Source of the DNA: a virus
Reading direction: 5' to 3' (one strand)
IMG/VR virus record: IMGVR_UViG_3300037230_000036
Span: 27,269 to 91,268 of that record
Length of the DNA: 64,000 nt
The notes beneath the pieces were generated by a model. The model was not told the DNA's origin. It saw nothing but the letters and a program-made list of their open reading frames with translations, and made no database searches. The position numbers were made by a program, and so were the translations under genes. Below, piece by piece: positions 34,456-54,075 of this stretch. How positions within the stretch are numbered: the stretch's first letter is position 1; every line of letters begins with the position of its first letter.

Positions 34456-35058
34456 ATGTCGGTACTGAAAAACGCTAAACACGAAGCCTTCGCCCAGGCA
34501 GTCGCCGCCGGGAAATCCCTGGTCGATGCCCATGAGATGGCCGGATATCCACGACATCGCGGCAATGCCTACTCGGTAGCGCAGCGTCTCGACATTAAAG
34601 GGCGAGTGGCTGAACTACTCAATCGCAGGGATCAGCGAGAGTTCGCGTCGACCGAGCGCGCGATCGAGAGAACGGCGATCACAAAGACCCGTGTTGCGAC
34701 CGAATTGGCGAAGATCGCCTTTGCCAGCATGGGCGATTATACGCGGGCTGAGGGCACGTCGAGGGTTCTTGACTTGACCAATGTGACGGAAGACCAACTC
34801 GCTGCTGTTCAGCAACTTGAGACTGACGTTTATGTTCAGGGTAAGGGCGAAACGGCAAAGGCGGTGGTGCGGGTCAAGAAGTTCCGGCTGCACGACAAGC
34901 GCCAGGCCCTCATGGATATCGCGGCGCTGTTCGGCTACGTCATCAAGCGGACCGAGGTTCGGGAGGTCGACGAGTTCGAGACGATGGACGCCGACGCGCT
35001 GAAGGAGCGGGTATCGGAGATCATCGCGGGGGGGCGGGCTGAGCCGACGCGGCATTGA
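34456..35058 (+). CDS. terS: Terminase small subunit
   Basis: 200 residues. An N-terminal helix-turn-helix (KHEAFAQAVAAGKSLVDAHE, then AYSVAQRLDIKGRVAEL) binds packaging DNA; the middle has the LTNVTEDQLAAVQQLE and KFRLHDKRQALMDIAALFGY segments usual in this family. It recognises DNA for the large subunit at 37143, though seven genes' length separates them, which is more than usual. Basic C-terminus. Confidence 0.8.
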   Translation: MSVLKNAKHEAFAQAVAAGKSLVDAHEMAGYPRHRGNAYSVAQRLDIKGRVAELLNRRDQREFASTERAIERTAITKTRVATELAKIAFASMGDYTRAEGTSRVLDLTNVTEDQLAAVQQLETDVYVQGKGETAKAVVRVKKFRLHDKRQALMDIAALFGYVIKRTEVREVDEFETMDADALKERVSEIIAGGRAEPTRH

Positions 35059-35068
35059 AGGAGTGGGA

Positions 35069-36019
35069 ATGATGGACGCAAGCAAGCCTGACGAGTTCGC
35101 GGCCGAGCTGGTCGACGCCTGTGCGCCTGGGATGGTCAAGAGCAAGGCGGAGGCTTTGGCGCTGTACGATCGCCACGACAGCTCCGAGGCTGCGCAGAAG
35201 CGACGGGACGAGTGGGGTGAGCAGGAACAGGGCGACCCGGCGCTTGAGGCTTTGCGGCGCGCGCTGCTGCCGGGATTGCTGATGATCGAGGAGTGCTCCA
35301 GGCAGCTCACGCGGCAGTGGACACGGGTCTTCCGGAAGGTGGCAACGGCACCCATTGGGTTCGTGGAGATTCAGTATCGCGGAGCGCTTCACCGCCTCTG
35401 CTCGATGGATAGCAAGGGAGGTGTGGCGCTTAGGACAGTGCTGGCGCCGGAGAGGGGCCTGGAGGGGTTTGTCGTTCAGGCTATTGGGATGTCGGAGTGC
35501 TCCCTCCAAGTTGAGGAAATGCGCCACGCCAACGTACTGGATGCCGGCCGGGTTGCGGACGCCGCGGAGGGTGGTGGAACTCCGCTGTTCTCGCTCAAAC
35601 ACCAGATCGACACCGGCGTTTACTCGAACATGCTCGACCCGGCTTCGGAGCTCAACGAGATGGCGGTGGAGATGGCGGCTGTGGCGGTTCGCAAGCTGCC
35701 AGACCAAGCTGGATCGCGGGCGTTGGCCAATCCGAAGCTGCTCGTGGTGCCGACAGGGTTGGAGTTCAGCGCCCATCGGCTCTGCAAGGGCGACCACGCC
35801 GCGAGTTGGCCGCAGGATGGCTATTGCGTTCTCGATTATCTCGTAAATCCGAAGGCGTGGTTTCTGACTACCACGATCAAGGGGCTCGTCAGCATCGAGA
35901 AGGCACCGTTCAAGCTGGACCTCAAGGTCGAGGGTGATGCGCTGGTGCTGGAAGGTTCGCAGTCCTACGCCGCCGGCTACATGAACCCGCGTGGGGTCTT
36001 CGGGAGCTTCCCCGGCTGA
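35069..36019 (+). CDS. Diverged second major-capsid-like protein
   Basis: 316 residues; AAGGAG precedes ATG 35069. It aligns along its length with the capsid protein at 52173: LLPGL and RQWxxVF (65-70, 82-87), IExxYxGAL, QAIGMSECSLQVEEMRHANVL against MSIGLAESFAQTEEIVHANIL, LNEMAVE, PDQAG, VLDYL, then TIKGLVSIEKAPFKLDLKV against TIKGLVSYERVPFELDMQV, and MNPRG. It has an acidic ~64-residue N-terminal extension and lacks about 20-30 residues in the E-loop region. It lies between the terminase genes. It could be a minor shell component, an assembly regulator or a decaying duplicate. Confidence 0.8.
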   Translation: MMDASKPDEFAAELVDACAPGMVKSKAEALALYDRHDSSEAAQKRRDEWGEQEQGDPALEALRRALLPGLLMIEECSRQLTRQWTRVFRKVATAPIGFVEIQYRGALHRLCSMDSKGGVALRTVLAPERGLEGFVVQAIGMSECSLQVEEMRHANVLDAGRVADAAEGGGTPLFSLKHQIDTGVYSNMLDPASELNEMAVEMAAVAVRKLPDQAGSRALANPKLLVVPTGLEFSAHRLCKGDHAASWPQDGYCVLDYLVNPKAWFLTTTIKGLVSIEKAPFKLDLKVEGDALVLEGSQSYAAGYMNPRGVFGSFPG

Positions 36020-36038
36020 GGTGCGCGGCGACTGCGGA

Positions 36039-36125
36039 TGTGATACAAACCTCGTCTCTGAGGCTGTTCGTCGTAGCCGAGTGCGGTTGTCGGCAACGAG
36101 CTCGCTCACAGACGAGGTCTATTTT
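36039..36125 (+). promoter_or_regulatory. TGTGATACAAA box joined to a branched RNA hairpin
   Basis: TGTGATACAAA (36039-36049) runs into ACCTCGTCT, which pairs perfectly with AGACGAGGT at 36110-36118; the interior folds further (GGCT/AGCC, and GTTG-TCGG-CAAC). A TATTTT run follows. It could be an attenuator, terminator or short structured RNA. The same box abuts a hairpin at 47365. Confidence 0.5.
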
Positions 36126-36150
36126 CCATAATCGCGGCACGGATGGGGAA

Positions 36151-36354
36151 ATGAGCGAGGAAGTCTGCGATATCGGCTACATCAACCCCGAGAGGAAGCA
36201 CGCGCTGATCAGCATCAAGGCACCGTCGCTGAATAGCTGCCACTGCTCATGGCAGCGCAATATGGCGCAATTTGCGATCACCATCGAGAGCGCGATCGTT
36301 CTCCGCGCGAAGCTGAATGCGTTTCTCGCCCAGCACGGAGTCACATTTCAATGA
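36151..36354 (+). CDS. Hypothetical small protein
   Basis: 67 residues from ATG 36151 (GGATGGGGA upstream). Beta-like start (VCDIGYINPERKHALISI) and a C-terminal helix; three Cys. Unknown. Overlaps the next ATG by four bases. Confidence 0.5.
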   Translation: MSEEVCDIGYINPERKHALISIKAPSLNSCHCSWQRNMAQFAITIESAIVLRAKLNAFLAQHGVTFQ

Positions 36355-36521
36355 GCGACGCACCGCAGGAATGGCACCCGTGGGCCGATTATGGGGGAAG
36401 CCCGGATGAGCCTCCCGTAGCGGAAGCCGGGATCGATCTCGCCGGCCCTCCCTGTGCGGGCTGCCGTTCCTGGGCTGAGTCGACTCCTCCATCGCGCTCT
36501 GAGGAGGAGATGCCGTTTTGA
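36351..36521 (+). CDS. Hypothetical small acidic protein
   Basis: 56 residues, Pro/Glu/Trp-rich with CAGC; ends with EEEMPF, an acidic tip reminiscent of SSB tails. ATGA overlap upstream. Unknown. Confidence 0.5.
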   Translation: MSDAPQEWHPWADYGGSPDEPPVAEAGIDLAGPPCAGCRSWAESTPPSRSEEEMPF

Positions 36522-36742
36522 CCAAAGCCCGGCGCCCCACCGCAGCAGATCGTGACCTCGCCGATCACATTCGCCGGCTCCCGTTCGGCTCGTACAGGAT
36601 CGATTCGATCGATGAGGCGGCGTCCGATGGGACCGCACCGATGCGGTACTGTGGTCTGGCTCGTATGAAGCGCGAAGGGCAGCTCACGCTCGAAATTGGC
36701 GTGAAACGCATCGATATCTATCCGTCCGAGCCGTCCGCATGA
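36518..36742 (+). CDS. Hypothetical protein with TTG start
   Basis: 74 residues. TTG at 36518 overlaps the upstream TGA and follows GAGGAGGAGA at a good distance. Basic N-terminus, alpha/beta content. Unknown. Confidence 0.55.
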   Translation: MTKARRPTAADRDLADHIRRLPFGSYRIDSIDEAASDGTAPMRYCGLARMKREGQLTLEIGVKRIDIYPSEPSA

Positions 36743-37146
36743 CCGTCATGACTCGCGAAGAAGCCGTCGCCGAACTGCTCGACAAAGCTCGTCGTCTGCA
36801 GCCTGAGACGGGGCTGCTGCCCTCCGAGCTGCCGGTGTCATCTCTGATCGCCCATGCCTTCATCGACGCCGTGAACGCCGAGTGGGACGCGCTCTACTCG
36901 ACAACCGCCGAAGTGCGCGAGATCGCCGATAGGGCGCGAGAACTTGCGCGCGCCGCGTCTGCGGCAATGGACCTCGACAAGCCGGACTTCGACTCGTCCC
37001 GCTACCTTGTGTTCGGGCTTGAGCATGCCTACCGCGCACCTGCCGGCGATGACAAGACCGTTCCGCTGCTCCAATGGATGCTCGGCTGCGCAAAGCCGCT
37101 GTGGGCGATGTTCATCCAGGACGCTGCCGCGCCGGCTGAGCCGTGA
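36739..37146 (+). CDS. Hypothetical protein
   Basis: 135 residues, helical (EEAVAELLDKARRLQ; EIADRARELARAASAAMDLD). ATGA overlap with the upstream gene and GTGA overlap with terL. Unknown. Confidence 0.55.
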   Translation: MTVMTREEAVAELLDKARRLQPETGLLPSELPVSSLIAHAFIDAVNAEWDALYSTTAEVREIADRARELARAASAAMDLDKPDFDSSRYLVFGLEHAYRAPAGDDKTVPLLQWMLGCAKPLWAMFIQDAAAPAEP

Positions 37147-38930
37147 TCGACCTCGACACCCTCTCCACCGACGAACTCCGCTGGATCGCCCGCGCCGACC
37201 GCGCCATCAAGCGGAAGGCGGAAAAGCAGGCCTGCGAGGATAGCCTCCTCGAGTTCCTCCGCTGCGCCTGGCCGCACATGGGCGAGGCCGGCGAGTTCAT
37301 CCCGAACTGGCACCACGAGAAGATCGCGACCAACCTTGAGACGATGGCGTGGGATGGCGAGGTCGAGTCGCTGCAGGACGGCGACCCCGATGACCGCTTC
37401 ACGCGCTCGATCGTCTGCAACGTGCCACCGCGGACCACGAAGAGCTTGCTGATCTCGGTAGCCCTGCACGCCTGGGTATGGGCACAGCCGGAAAGCCGCT
37501 GGAGCCCGCTCTGCGGCCCACACGTCCGGTTCTTCTGCCTCAGCTATGGGGCGACGCTCGCCGAGGACTTGGCGGTCAAGGTGCGCCGGCTCATCATGGG
37601 CGCCTGGTATCAGCAGCACTGGGGCGCCCAGGTCGAGATCAGACCGGATCAGGCGGCGCGATCGAACTTCGCCAACACCAAAGGTGGGGAGCGGATCTCC
37701 TGCTCGATCGAGGGCGGCTTGCTGGGCCGCGGCGGCGACTGGCAGATTGTCGACGATCCCCACCATTTGAAGGGTGCCGAGAGCGATACCCAGCGCCGGG
37801 AAACGCTCGAAGGCATGCGCAGCCTCGTCACCCGCGTCACCGATCCCCGCATCGCCGCGCGCGTCCTCGTCATGCAGCGGGTCCACAAGGACGACTCGAC
37901 CAACTACGCGATCGAGAATTGGGGCCCGGTGAGGCATCTCATGTTCCCGATGAAGTTCGATGAGCGCCGCGCCGATCCGGAGGACGAGCGGGATACCGAC
38001 GGCGAGTTGCTGTGGCCGGAAGTCTGGACCGAGAAGGTCGTCGAGCAGGAAGAGCGCGAGCTGCGGCCATATGGCGTCGCCGGGCAACTCCAGCAGGCGC
38101 CGGTGCCGAAAGGCGGCGGCATCATCAGCCGGAACTGGTGGCGGCTGTGGCCCGGCGACTACCCGGAAGCCGCGACCTATGACCCGATCTGCTTCTGTCC
38201 GCTGTGCAAATGGCATTCGAAGGTGCCCCGGGGACAGGTCGTCGAGGAATGCCCGAGTTGCGGCTCCAGGGTCGAGCGCCACGTCCCGTTCCCGGATCTC
38301 TCCTACCGGCTGCTGTCGGTCGACACCGCGTACGGCGAGAAGGACGACAACTCGTACAGCGCCGCGACGGTATGGGGTATCTGGCACGACAAGACCGAGG
38401 CGCCGCGCGCGATCCTGATGCGGGCCTGGCGTGGCCGGCCGCGGCTGCGCGGGGTTCCGGACTCCCCGGTCGCGGCGGAACGCATCGGTCTCGTCGAGCG
38501 GATCCACATGATGGCGGTCGGCGACCAGGTCGATGCGGTGCTGATCGAGAACAAGAGCCGCGGCCAGGACCTCTACCAGGAGCTCGAGCAGCTGATGCGG
38601 GAGTGGCCGTTCCAGCTGATCTACACGACGCCGGTGGTCTCGAAGGAGGTCCGGCTGGAAAGCTGCGTCCCGCTCTTCGTCAATGAACGGGTCTGGGCGC
38701 CGGACAAAGCCTGGGCGGAACTCGTCATCAACGAGGTCGAGGAGCAGAACTACAGCCACAAGGCGCAGCACAATGATCTAAGCGACACCGTCGCGCAAAG
38801 CTTGAGATTTTTCAGAGACTCCGGGATGCTGAGCCTGGGCGACGAGTTCGCGCTGGAAACCCGGCGGTCGATGGCGTTCAAGGGGAAGAGCGGGCGGTTC
38901 GACGCCGGCGCCGCTTACGAGGGGGAGTGA
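37143..38930 (+). CDS. terL: Terminase large subunit with zinc-ribbon insertion
   Basis: 595 residues from GTG 37143. ATPase: VPPRTTKS (~92-99) as Walker A and WQIVDDPHH (~199-207) as Walker B. Nuclease: SVDTAYGEKDD (~392), DAVLIENKSRG (~462-472), HNDLSDTVAQSLR (~542). It cuts and pumps DNA into the shell. Between the domains, CFCPLCKW (~349-356) and ECPSCGS (~369-375) form two Cys pairs, an apparent zinc ribbon not normally found in TerL. A long antisense frame is only codon-bias shadow. Confidence 0.9.
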   Translation: MIDLDTLSTDELRWIARADRAIKRKAEKQACEDSLLEFLRCAWPHMGEAGEFIPNWHHEKIATNLETMAWDGEVESLQDGDPDDRFTRSIVCNVPPRTTKSLLISVALHAWVWAQPESRWSPLCGPHVRFFCLSYGATLAEDLAVKVRRLIMGAWYQQHWGAQVEIRPDQAARSNFANTKGGERISCSIEGGLLGRGGDWQIVDDPHHLKGAESDTQRRETLEGMRSLVTRVTDPRIAARVLVMQRVHKDDSTNYAIENWGPVRHLMFPMKFDERRADPEDERDTDGELLWPEVWTEKVVEQEERELRPYGVAGQLQQAPVPKGGGIISRNWWRLWPGDYPEAATYDPICFCPLCKWHSKVPRGQVVEECPSCGSRVERHVPFPDLSYRLLSVDTAYGEKDDNSYSAATVWGIWHDKTEAPRAILMRAWRGRPRLRGVPDSPVAAERIGLVERIHMMAVGDQVDAVLIENKSRGQDLYQELEQLMREWPFQLIYTTPVVSKEVRLESCVPLFVNERVWAPDKAWAELVINEVEEQNYSHKAQHNDLSDTVAQSLRFFRDSGMLSLGDEFALETRRSMAFKGKSGRFDAGAAYEGE

Positions 38931-46068: not shown

Positions 46069-46360
46069 CGTCCGCTACAAGGACGGTCGCGCCCCGGTCA
46101 TCGGGGTTATCCGGGCGCCGGACCCCGCCATTGGTCTCGCCCGTGCCCGCGATTTTTTCGAGCAAACCCTGGAAGCGCATGGTGACTGCCGGATCGGCGC
46201 AATGGCGTTGGTGATCTGGGACCACCAGTTCAACGCAACAACGTTTCTTGGCTCCGCCTCGCACTTCCCGGCGGCGCCGGCGATGCTGCCGGACATGGCA
46301 AAGGCGGCCCTCCAGACGCACCGGATCAGATCGTTGGCCCGCGACGTTTTCAATGATTGA
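46040..46360 (+). CDS. Hypothetical protein
   Basis: 106 residues, alpha/beta (GDCRIGAMALVIWDHQFNAT). Overlaps the previous gene by 29 bases. A type seen in phage structural regions; function unknown. Confidence 0.5.
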   Translation: MRSSIPRVRSVRYKDGRAPVIGVIRAPDPAIGLARARDFFEQTLEAHGDCRIGAMALVIWDHQFNATTFLGSASHFPAAPAMLPDMAKAALQTHRIRSLARDVFND

Positions 46361-46374
46361 CGATGGAGATCGAT

Positions 46375-47346
46375 ATGGACGGCGAAAACGAAGGTCAGAC
46401 GAGTTATCAGCAGCCCGCGCCTGAGCTACCGCCGACGGACCTTCGTCCGGTCGACCCTCCGCTACCCGAAGGCACAAATGGTGGCGATCCGGTGTACCAG
46501 CCGCAGAACGCCAGCAACCCGGAGTACGGCTCTCCCCTGCAGCCCGTGGAAGGGGAGACCGAAATGCGGTACACCGGCCTCGCCGAGCTGAAGGCTGAAG
46601 GCGGCGACCGGGCGACCGATCCAGACGCCGATCCGTCCTACGGCCAACCCGCGCCGGACGCCGATCCGCGCGTGGACGCTGCCGCGGCGGATATCTCGAA
46701 GCGCATGACCGTGCTGATCAACAATGCTTCGGCTTTTACGGCTCAAGCCGCTCTGACCCGACCGGCGATCGACAAGGCCGTGACGATCGCGGACGAGGCG
46801 ACTACCGCGGCGGTTTCGGACGTCAGCGCCGCGCAAACTGCGGACACCGCCGCGAAGGCGGCTCACGACGCCGACGCTCACGATGCCGATTCCCTTGCGG
46901 AACTGGCGACGGCGGCCGCGACCAAGGCCAGCGCGATGGGCGAGGCGGCGGCGAAGGCATCGGCTTCCGTTGCGGCGGCCACGGCCTATGACTCAGCGAT
47001 GGCGACCGCGCTTCAGACCGCGATCGACGCCCGCACCACCCAGGCGGACGCTGACGCCGCGCTGGCAGCCAACTCTCCGGACGCCGCCCCCAAGCAGATC
47101 GCCGCCGATGCTGCGGCGGCTTCGGCACTTACCGCCGGGGAGGCTGCGGGCAAGGCCTCTGCCGACGCGAATGCCGCGGCCCAAAGCGCCGCCGAAGCAT
47201 TGGAAGCGGCTCGGGCGCCTGCGCAGTCGGCGCTTGGCAGCGAGTACCGCACCGCCTTTGCTGAACTCAAGGCCTGGACGCGCCGCGAGATCGAGCTGGC
47301 GACCGCCGGCCACTCTCGCGAGACCCGAGAAGTCATCAACAAATAG
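46375..47346 (+). CDS. Ala-rich helical protein containing a capsid-derived segment
   Basis: 323 residues from ATG 46375 (GGAG at 46365-46368); 46363 and TTG 46357 are upstream alternatives. Disordered Pro/Asp-rich N-terminus (~1-110), long Ala-rich helix (~115-300), short basic end. Residues 63-77 (EMRYTGLAELKAEGG) are identical to capsid residues 48-62 and identical in DNA over 48 bases. The segment is foreign to the disordered context. Could be a fibrous or scaffold-like virion protein. Confidence 0.6.
   Translation: MDGENEGQTSYQQPAPELPPTDLRPVDPPLPEGTNGGDPVYQPQNASNPEYGSPLQPVEGETEMRYTGLAELKAEGGDRATDPDADPSYGQPAPDADPRVDAAAADISKRMTVLINNASAFTAQAALTRPAIDKAVTIADEATTAAVSDVSAAQTADTAAKAAHDADAHDADSLAELATAAATKASAMGEAAAKASASVAAATAYDSAMATALQTAIDARTTQADADAALAANSPDAAPKQIAADAAAASALTAGEAAGKASADANAAAQSAAEALEAARAPAQSALGSEYRTAFAELKAWTRREIELATAGHSRETREVINK
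46559..46606 (+). repeat. 48-bp exact direct repeat, copy 1
   Basis: Identical base for base with 52312-52359 and in the same reading frame. Flanks differ immediately on both sides. Confidence 0.95.
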
Positions 47347-49285: not shown

Positions 49286-49702
49286 ATGGCCGAAATCGCC
49301 AGCCAAGCCCTCCAGCTAAACCTGGGGAACGATCCGGCCTCCGCCATTCGGCTGCAGGTCGCGAACTTCCTTGACGGCATCGAGATCGGCGGCGAAGACC
49401 TGCTGGTCGGCATCTTTATCCCGGATGCGAACGCCAAGACCGCCGGCAACATCATCCTGCCCGAGCAGTACCTCAAGGAATACCGCTGGCAGGGGACCGC
49501 CGGCCTCGTCTTGAAGATCGGGCCGCTCGCCTACAACACCGAGGAAACGAAGGACTGGTACGCCAAGGCACCCGCCGTTGGCGACTGGGTCATGTTCGAC
49601 GTGAAGACGGGGCACCAACTCCTCCTCGGTAAGCAGCCCTGTCGGCTGGTCCCGGCCCGCTACATCCTCGGCAAGCTCGCCAACCCAATGCTGGTGTTCT
49701 GA
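49286..49702 (+). CDS. GroES-like co-chaperonin candidate
   Basis: 138 residues. Residues ~38-125 follow the Cpn10 pattern: EDLLVGIFIPD, an AGNIILPE mobile-loop edge, GLVLKIGPLAY, VGDWVMFD, and a C-terminal YILGKL strand. T4 gp31 and RB49 CocO are phage proteins of this fold that help GroEL fold the capsid protein. Position just upstream of scaffold and capsid fits. The mobile loop is shorter than usual, so partner binding is uncertain. Confidence 0.5.
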   Translation: MAEIASQALQLNLGNDPASAIRLQVANFLDGIEIGGEDLLVGIFIPDANAKTAGNIILPEQYLKEYRWQGTAGLVLKIGPLAYNTEETKDWYAKAPAVGDWVMFDVKTGHQLLLGKQPCRLVPARYILGKLANPMLVF

Positions 49703-51922: not shown

Positions 51923-52171
51923 ATGTCCCGCCGCGCCGGAAATCCGACAGACTTCGAGAGCTTCCTGACCTGGGAAGCCCTCGTCGACGTGCTGTCGTAT
52001 GACCCGGCCTACGGCGAGTTCCGGTGGCTTGGAACCTTCGATACGAAGGAAGAGGCCGTTCTCGCCCGTGCGCGCTTCGACAATGAACACATCGGTGAAT
52101 TCGCGCGGTCTGACACTTCGTTCCGCGAAGCGCCTGTAGTCGCAAGACTAGGCCAAGTAAAGGAGAAGTAA
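51923..52171 (+). pseudogene. Deleted HNH-AP2 homing-endonuclease relic
   Basis: 82 residues. The front (VDVLSYDPAYGEFRWLG) matches the start of HNH-AP2 nucleases such as 53245 (REVMSYDLATGEFQW). The back (FDTKEEAVLARARFDNEHIGEFAR) matches the end of an AP2 domain. The whole HNH region in between is missing. An in-frame deletion product, so a short protein may still be made. Its stop overlaps the capsid start region. Confidence 0.6.
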
Positions 52172-52172
52172 A

Positions 52173-53081
52173 TTGGCCATCACGAGAGGGTCAGAGCGCG
52201 ATTTGTTGTTACCAGGTCTAGCGGGGGTCGAGGGCAAGTATCCGCAGATTGTTCGCCAATGGCCAACGGTGTTCAACCGCGGCTTTTCGAAGATGGCCGC
52301 CGAGCGTATCGCCGAAATGCGGTACACCGGCCTCGCCGAGCTGAAGGCTGAAGGCGGCGCGACCACCTTCGACAACGCCCCCGGCGAGCGCTTTATCTGG
52401 AACATCGAGGCCAATGCCTACGGTCTCGGCACGGCGATCACCCGTGAGGCCTTGGACGACAACCTCTACAAGGACCATTTCGGTCCGATGTCGATCGGCC
52501 TCGCGGAATCCTTCGCGCAGACCGAAGAGATCGTCCACGCCAACATCTTGAACCAGTCGACGACGAACAACCCGACGATCATCGGCGACGGTCAGCCGTT
52601 GGCCTCGACCGCGCATCCGATCGACAACGGCACCTACGCGAACCGGCCGTCGCCCGACCTCGACCTCAACGAGGCCGCCGTCGAGTACATGACGCAGCTG
52701 ATCCGCGTCTTCCCCGACCAGGCCGGCAACCGCCTCTTGGCGCGCTCCCGGAAGCTCGGCGTCCCCATCGCGCTGCAGTACACCGCGGAGCGCCTCACCA
52801 AGGCCGAGCTCCGCCCCGGCACCAACACGAACGACATCACCGCGTTCCTCTCGGCGGGCGCCCTCCCCGAGGGCTACCAGGTCATGGACTACCTGACCTC
52901 GCCCTACCTCTGGTTCGTGCTGTCGACGATCAAGGGGCTGGTCAGCTACGAACGGGTGCCGTTCGAGCTCGATATGCAAGTCGATCCGATAACCGGAAAT
53001 CTTTTACTAGTAGGTTACCAGAGGTATGGAGTTGGGTGGAAGAACCCCCGCGGTATCGCCATTTCGGCTCCGACAGCCTAG
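52173..53081 (+). CDS. Major capsid protein
   Basis: 302 residues from a TTG at 52173 (AAGGAGAAG upstream, stop of the previous frame overlapping). HK97-fold signs: N-arm, spine-helix region and P-domain (~100-130, EESFAQ-like MSIGLAESFAQTEEIVHANI), A-domain (~150-250) and the C-terminal TIKGLVSYERVPFELDMQVD strand. Similar to the Mu gpT group in pattern. A TTG start for the most abundant virion protein is unusual. A diverged paralogue is at 35069. Confidence 0.85.
   Translation: MAITRGSERDLLLPGLAGVEGKYPQIVRQWPTVFNRGFSKMAAERIAEMRYTGLAELKAEGGATTFDNAPGERFIWNIEANAYGLGTAITREALDDNLYKDHFGPMSIGLAESFAQTEEIVHANILNQSTTNNPTIIGDGQPLASTAHPIDNGTYANRPSPDLDLNEAAVEYMTQLIRVFPDQAGNRLLARSRKLGVPIALQYTAERLTKAELRPGTNTNDITAFLSAGALPEGYQVMDYLTSPYLWFVLSTIKGLVSYERVPFELDMQVDPITGNLLLVGYQRYGVGWKNPRGIAISAPTA
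52312..52359 (+). repeat. 48-bp exact direct repeat, copy 2
   Basis: Inside the capsid gene, codons 47-63. Identical with 46559-46606. The paralogue at 35069 has a diverged version here, so this copy is the native location. Confidence 0.95.
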
Positions 53082-53182
53082 TAAGATATCGGAAATCTGC
53101 GGCAAGTAGAATTCGGAAGTAACCTTTCAGCGATAACCGAATGATGCGTATCGCTGATAACCGAGACGTAAATTGGAACACC

Positions 53183-53210
53183 TTGCGCCAGTCGAAAAAT
53201 TGGATATAAT
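53183..53210 (+). promoter_or_regulatory. Sigma-70-type promoter for the HNH gene
   Basis: TTGCGC, 16 bases, TATAAT. The -10 is perfect. A CCCTTGGT-GAAAA-ACCAGGG hairpin follows at ~53212-53231. The nuclease gene therefore seems to have its own early promoter. Confidence 0.65.
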
Positions 53211-53244
53211 CCCCTTGGTGAAAAACCAGGGAAGGATTATTCCG

Positions 53245-54075
53245 ATGAAAGACCGAGTGCATCGTGTGGCGACGGCTCAGCGCCTCCGCGAGGTTATGTC
53301 CTATGACCTCGCAACCGGAGAATTCCAGTGGAAAATTCGTACCGGGTATCGTGTTCAGGTGGGCGCTAACGCGGGCTGTCTCGGCAGCGAAGGTTATTGG
53401 ATCGTCAGCCTCGACGGCATCAGCTATCGCCGTGCCAGGCTCGCATGGCTTTACGTGACCGGCGATTGGCCGAAGGGTGAGGTTGACCACATCGACCGGC
53501 GCCGCAGCAATGACCGCTGGGAGAATCTGCGCGAGGTCACCAGTGCGCAGAACAAAGAAAACACGCATCGGATGTCCAACAATACCAGCGGGTATCGGGG
53601 CGTGAGCTTTCATAGGCCCAGCGGCAAATGGCGTGCGCGGGTCACCGTGAGCGGCGTCGATCACTGCGGCAGGTATTGGAGCACTGCCGAAGAAGCGAAG
53701 ACCGAGCGCGATGAGATGCGCGCCGCATTAGGTGTCCGCGAGGCCCTCGACGCTTCGCGCCCAGACCTCATTGAACGGCATCAGATTGAATCTGGATTCT
53801 ACGCCGAAACGCTGGCCAAACAGCACGGATGCTGCGCCGCCTGCAAGAGGCCATGGTTTCCATCTGACGATGCCGCGCTGGCGTTCGATGTCGATCCTGC
53901 GACCGGGGAACTGTGTTCGCTCTTGTGCCGCGAGTGCAAAGAGATTGTTGATTTTGCGGACAAGCATCCAGCCGTGATCGGAAGTCTTTCATTGGCTCAA
54001 CTCTACCTCCAGGCCGACTCGCCTCGCTGGACGGGCTACCGTCAGCCGCTAATTCCCCAGAAGGAATCCGCATGA
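53245..54075 (+). CDS. HNH-AP2 endonuclease fused to an endonuclease VII-like domain
   Basis: 276 residues; GGGAAGGA is 8 bases before ATG 53245. Residues ~15-65: NUMOD-like start and ARLAWLYVTGDWP; HNH core VDHIDRRRSNDRWENLREVT (~80-99); AP2-like DNA binding NNTSGYRGVSFHR to WSTAEEAK (~112-155). C-terminal ~185-255: KQHGCCAACKRPW, VDPATGELCSLLCRECK, resembling recombination endonuclease VII. Probably a mobile element invading next to the capsid gene. The His in the C-terminal motif is not obvious, so that half may be structural. Confidence 0.75.
   Translation: MKDRVHRVATAQRLREVMSYDLATGEFQWKIRTGYRVQVGANAGCLGSEGYWIVSLDGISYRRARLAWLYVTGDWPKGEVDHIDRRRSNDRWENLREVTSAQNKENTHRMSNNTSGYRGVSFHRPSGKWRARVTVSGVDHCGRYWSTAEEAKTERDEMRAALGVREALDASRPDLIERHQIESGFYAETLAKQHGCCAACKRPWFPSDDAALAFDVDPATGELCSLLCRECKEIVDFADKHPAVIGSLSLAQLYLQADSPRWTGYRQPLIPQKESA

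Follow-up and report, generated by a model that had tools for sequence, protein, structure and literature searches.

The window, that is, the whole 64,000-nucleotide stretch of viral DNA analysed here, carries between its two terminase genes a second capsid gene (P0001), whose product, as judged from its sequence, is a true paralogue of the phage's own major capsid protein (MCP) and may serve as a minor capsomer protein. BLASTP aligned P0001 with nearly the whole MCP encoded at 52173–53081, and the values obtained (35% identity, 152 bits, E = 7e-49) place the resemblance far above chance. All motifs named in the original prediction lay inside this alignment. Since the flanking genes were identified as terS (PF03592) and terL (phrog_38), the predicted diverged capsid-fold paralogue beside terS, between the terminase subunits, was borne out, as was the distance of approximately 16 kb between the two capsid genes. 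The features considered below are as follows.

34456–35058, + strand: terS (Terminase_2, PF03592), match above the PF03592 cut-off.
35057–35063, + strand: Shine-Dalgarno-like GAAGGAG overlapping the terS stop, read from the sequence.
35069–36019, + strand: P0001, capsid paralogue gene, 316 aa, from its ORF, homology and predicted fold.
35069–35254, + strand: N-terminal extension of P0001, residues 1–62, predicted to be helical, from alignment and model.
35447–35551, + strand: predicted long spine helix of P0001, residues 127–161, with the preceding E-loop truncated, from model and alignment.
36020–37142, + strand: remaining segment between P0001 and terL; in the related phage G020, terS abuts terL directly.
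37143–38930, + strand: terL (phrog_38, E = 4e-62).
52173–53081, + strand: MCP gene, Phage_capsid_4/Mu gpT-like, from homology and profile matches.
52392–52472, + strand: MCP residues ca. 74–100 (E-loop return strand to DDNLY), largely gone in P0001, from alignment.
52809–52847, + strand: MCP segment LRPGTNTNDITAF at the A-domain tip, retained across MCPs but lost or no longer recognisable in each of the three paralogues, from alignment.

The P0001 frame runs from an ATG at 35069 to a stop at 36017–36019, and a GTG is present at 35063. The position of GAAGGAG over the terS stop suggests that translation of P0001 is coupled to that of terS. An antisense ORF longer than P0001 (35021–36109) was rejected; it had no homology support, and the homology and the related genes were all in the + frame. 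The same 20 kb recurs in a second contig, G001, with one mismatch (19,999/20,000), so P0001 is no artefact of assembly. The 91,268-bp record from which the window was taken has its own MCP, portal and terL genes. Since both ends of this record have a 29-bp direct repeat in common and are contiguous in G020, the record probably represents a complete circular genome.

P0001 matched capsid families in Pfam, PHROGs and NCBIfam only below threshold (Mu gpT and phrog_371), its nearest families being Mu gpT, phrog_371 and scaf_prot_MCP2, while the MCP of the window exceeded the cut-offs of Phage_capsid_4 and Mu-like_gpT. One orthologue of P0001, that of record G006, scored above the Mu gpT cut-off. 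A sequence search of the PDB with P0001 found no relatives, and the MCP profile gave only sub-significant matches there, to Mu gpT-type MCPs. An AlphaFold model of P0001 (med1ac4199534), for which 19 sequences derived from the window and the loci were aligned, was only moderately confident (mean pLDDT 71); the pLDDT of the MCP model was 31. The P0001 model contained three short helices within residues 1–51, a helix at residues 57–79, a weak hairpin, a 35-residue spine helix and an A-domain-like sheet. Its top PDB matches were exclusively HK97-fold capsids and encapsulins, including the gene transfer agent capsid, HRP29, T5 and HK97 (best E = 4e-5, probability 1.00), with TM-scores of ca. 0.4 that constitute evidence at the fold level only. 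According to this model, P0001 is predicted to have an HK97-type fold with a spine helix and P and A domains, in line with the capsid fold proposed originally.

Two orthologues of P0001 were found in IMG/VR; the possession of two capsid genes, confirmed for the window phage, is not unique to it. On the 4.3-kb contig L002, 9 nt separate the MCP stop from the paralogue, behind which comes the gene usual after MCP; in the 90.8-kb record G006, the start of the paralogue lies at the end of an N-acetylmuramidase endolysin gene, within the lysis cassette. The order terS-paralogue-terL was therefore not reproduced in these related phages. A search of IMG/VR with the paralogue alignment recovered only the already known records, and none was found among GTDB genome contigs; two contigs found with a discriminating DNA pattern proved to be unrelated. 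The wider scans required exact short peptide patterns and may have missed diverged paralogues. In total, the distribution is patchy, with the paralogue in 3 phages out of ca. 40 MCP-bearing records searched. No second copy was found in twelve further MCP contigs or in the other MCP-bearing records, many of which are fragments. The close relative G020 (93,664 bp, MCP 88% identical to that of the window), which is a complete circular assembly as judged by its 127-bp terminal repeat, has the MCP and no detected second capsid copy, and its terS abuts or overlaps terL; P0001 is thus accessory. In MW202675, terS likewise adjoins terL. The terL homology of G003 and G005 was interrupted by ca. 1 kb within a single long frame (1328 and 950 aa), which is suggestive of inteins.

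The slot behind the MCP gene is variable: L003 has next to nothing there, L002 has the paralogue, and the window, L004, L006 and L040 each have a gene for an HNH endonuclease. In the window, HNH-endonuclease-like genes flank the MCP gene on both sides (51923–52171 and 53173–54075), and a GroES-like co-chaperonin is encoded close upstream (49286–49702; phrog_3188, E = 7e-8); such a gene is annotated in MW202675 and in Caulobacter phage RW, too. Two similar adjacent ORFs lie ca. 182–2222 bases past the MCP stop in L041 and seem to have arisen by tandem duplication of the gene following MCP.

Comparison of the paralogues with the MCPs revealed one gain and several losses. An N-terminal extension of ca. 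60 residues with the motifs ALALY and W.EQ is common to all three paralogues and absent from the MCPs compared; in P0001 its ca. 62 residues include 15 D/E versus 7 K/R, in agreement with the acidic extension that had been described. No relatives of this extension were found among 50,697 phage records, which do hold relatives of the MCP. All three paralogues lacked two MCP elements, DNLY at the E-loop/spine base and LRxGTxxND before an A-domain strand, both of which are retained in distant MCPs at ca. 33% identity such as that of DSL-LC04. Placed from the HK97 fold in general, LRxGTxxND would lie at the capsomer axis. The shortening of the E-loop noted earlier proved real and was accompanied by the additional loss near the A-domain tip; most of the E-loop hairpin is gone from P0001, while the L002 and G006 copies retain it.

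A maximum-likelihood tree of 26 proteins placed the three paralogues in a single clade (100/100), which was sister to the ten MCPs of the subgroup (91/86), all inside one branch (100/98). Since the three form one clade beside the MCPs of the group, the simplest account of these sequences would be a single old duplication that predates the diversification of the subgroup, with later loss and relocation; horizontal passage of the paralogue between these phages is possible. The arrangement in L002, which is the one basis for this point, suggests that the paralogue originated by tandem duplication of MCP and was relocated in the window phage and G006. Between P0001 and the L002 copy, codon positions 1, 2 and 3 differed at 0.37, 0.31 and 0.59, respectively, and pN/pS was 0.34/0.69 with synonymous sites near saturation. 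Since differences at third positions were nearly twice as frequent as at the other two, and in view of pN/pS, the sequences indicate that the paralogue proteins are under purifying selection.

Our leading, still tentative, interpretation by analogy is that P0001 is a minor capsomer protein, probably at pentameric vertices. Two precedents are available. T4 gp24, probably a product of gp23 duplication, forms 11 of the 12 vertices as pentamers, and gp23 mutations, some of them in the A domain, can remove the need for it (PMC9958956). Like gp24, P0001 is an HK97-fold protein encoded by a separate minor gene and is a paralogue of the MCP of the same genome. It differs from gp24 in that its MCP belongs to another family (Mu gpT/Phage_capsid_4-like), its identity to its own MCP is ca. 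35% as compared to ca. 20%, its E-loop is largely lost, and its vertex location is a prediction; no gp23/gp24 model in Pfam, PHROGs or NCBIfam matched P0001. Moreover, it is the paralogue, not the MCP, that bears the ca. 60-residue extension, whereas in T4 the longer leader is on gp23, from which 65 residues are removed as compared to 10 from gp24 (PMC9958956). The second precedent, Ccm of SaPIbov5, is homologous to the helper capsid protein and carries an N-terminal delta domain (residues 1–87) in addition to the HK97 core. In the satellite procapsid, Ccm makes up the pentamers and the helper capsid protein the hexamers, and Ccm turns prolate into isometric heads (PMC8569155). P0001 shares with Ccm the homology to a capsid protein and the N-terminal extension, but Ccm is a satellite gene, whereas P0001 resides in a 91-kb phage genome and the paralogue has a different location in each of the three phages. 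Two-component family 2B encapsulin shells (PDB 9bje and 9bix) have, by their entry titles, two HK97-fold proteins per shell; these are cellular nanocompartments and resemble P0001 in fold only. By analogy, P0001 would work like gp24 or Ccm while being a member of neither by sequence or genetic context.

Of the three roles put forward in the original prediction (capping a vertex, binding terminase to the prohead and braking assembly), the vertex role fits best on account of these two precedents, the losses at the A-domain tip and the E-loop/spine base, and the delta-like extension; terminase binding was weakened by the positions of the orthologues, and the brake persists as a rival. The minor capsomer interpretation is favoured since the anatomy of P0001 resembles that of gp24 and Ccm and since the patchy presence suits a gene that changes in the MCP make dispensable. 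We infer that P0001 would be present in the virion, at a vertex position and with a delta-like role. Derived from the MCP of the phage by duplication, it would form specialised capsomers in shells built jointly with the MCP, most likely the pentamers at the non-portal vertices, where its altered A-domain tip would pack around the five-fold axis; the role of its helical N-terminal extension in assembly would be like that of a delta domain, and relatives lacking P0001 presumably build their pentamers from MCP only. The E-loop of HK97-type capsids normally touches the neighbouring subunit. The strongest objection to an ordinary capsomer is that P0001 has lost most of it, and normal assembly into capsomers may be doubtful for such a sequence.

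Copies of MCP pieces also occurred elsewhere in these phages. An exact 48-bp direct repeat (48/48) joins the MCP E-loop codons (52312–52359) in frame to 46559–46606, so that the E-loop peptide EMRYTGLAELKAEGG recurs in an Ala-rich ORF (46357–47346), a late gene unrelated to MCP; this is the only perfect repeat among the listed repeat families of the window, and G001 has a copy too. A 74-aa ORF between P0001 and terL (36518–36742) holds MRYCGLARMKREG, a diverged look-alike of EMRYTGLAELKAEGG with a marginal match (E = 0.12 within the genome) that may be due to chance. In G006, a 185-aa minus-strand ORF (L076, 10941–11498) resembles pieces of the MCP (E = 2e-6), namely its N-terminus, LRPGTANND (the LRPGTxNND motif) and the spine-helix motif ESFKQTEEI, and had no match among phage records. 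No such pieces were found in the non-carrier G020, a comparison of three genomes that are too few to conclude from. It is quite unlikely that the paralogue and these pieces form a capsid-mimic programme, docking on MCP to control assembly or acting as decoys for capsid-sensing factors.

The main rival to the minor capsomer interpretation, and a distinctly less probable one, is that P0001 regulates assembly, entering growing shells or binding free MCP so as to limit or redirect assembly without becoming a stable part of the virion; it might be a size or shape switch, a brake or a means of interfering with a competing phage or satellite. The absence of conserved MCP elements from every copy, the accessory and patchy distribution, and the satellite that redirects assembly with a capsid-protein homologue all agree with such a role. 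On the other hand, genome sizes are similar in the carriers (ca. 91 kb) and the complete non-carrier G020 (ca. 93.5 kb), so that no effect on head size is visible, and no integrase or satellite gene was recognised adjoining the copies; purifying selection does not discriminate here. A non-structural decoy, in which P0001 as an MCP look-alike ties up a capsid-sensing factor of the host or of a competitor, appears improbable. It would account for the further MCP-like pieces in carriers (the 48-bp E-loop copy in 46357–47346 and the G006 mini-ORF) and their apparent lack in G020, but that comparison covers three genomes only, a defence-family search (PADLOC) gave no match, and no sensor was recognised.

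That P0001 is a decaying duplicate without function is very improbable; its long branch, in-frame deletions and patchy presence would be expected of one, whereas the frame is open in three lineages that are ca. 50% diverged, changes at third codon positions are nearly twice as frequent as at the first two, the new extension is conserved and a ribosome-binding site is present. Least probable is a packaging adaptor that links terminase to the prohead. Such a function would explain the position between terS and terL and the likely translational coupling with terS, but the orthologues adjoin MCP (L002) and endolysin (G006) rather than terminase genes, and terS is next to terL without P0001 in the complete G020, as well as adjoining it in MW202675.

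Specialised vertex proteins derived from an MCP have been documented in few systems, of which T4 and one satellite were found here. The present phage group shows the duplicate in three contexts (beside MCP, beside endolysin, and between terS and terL), and together with a complete close relative without the paralogue, these make the gain, retention and loss of a second shell protein directly testable.
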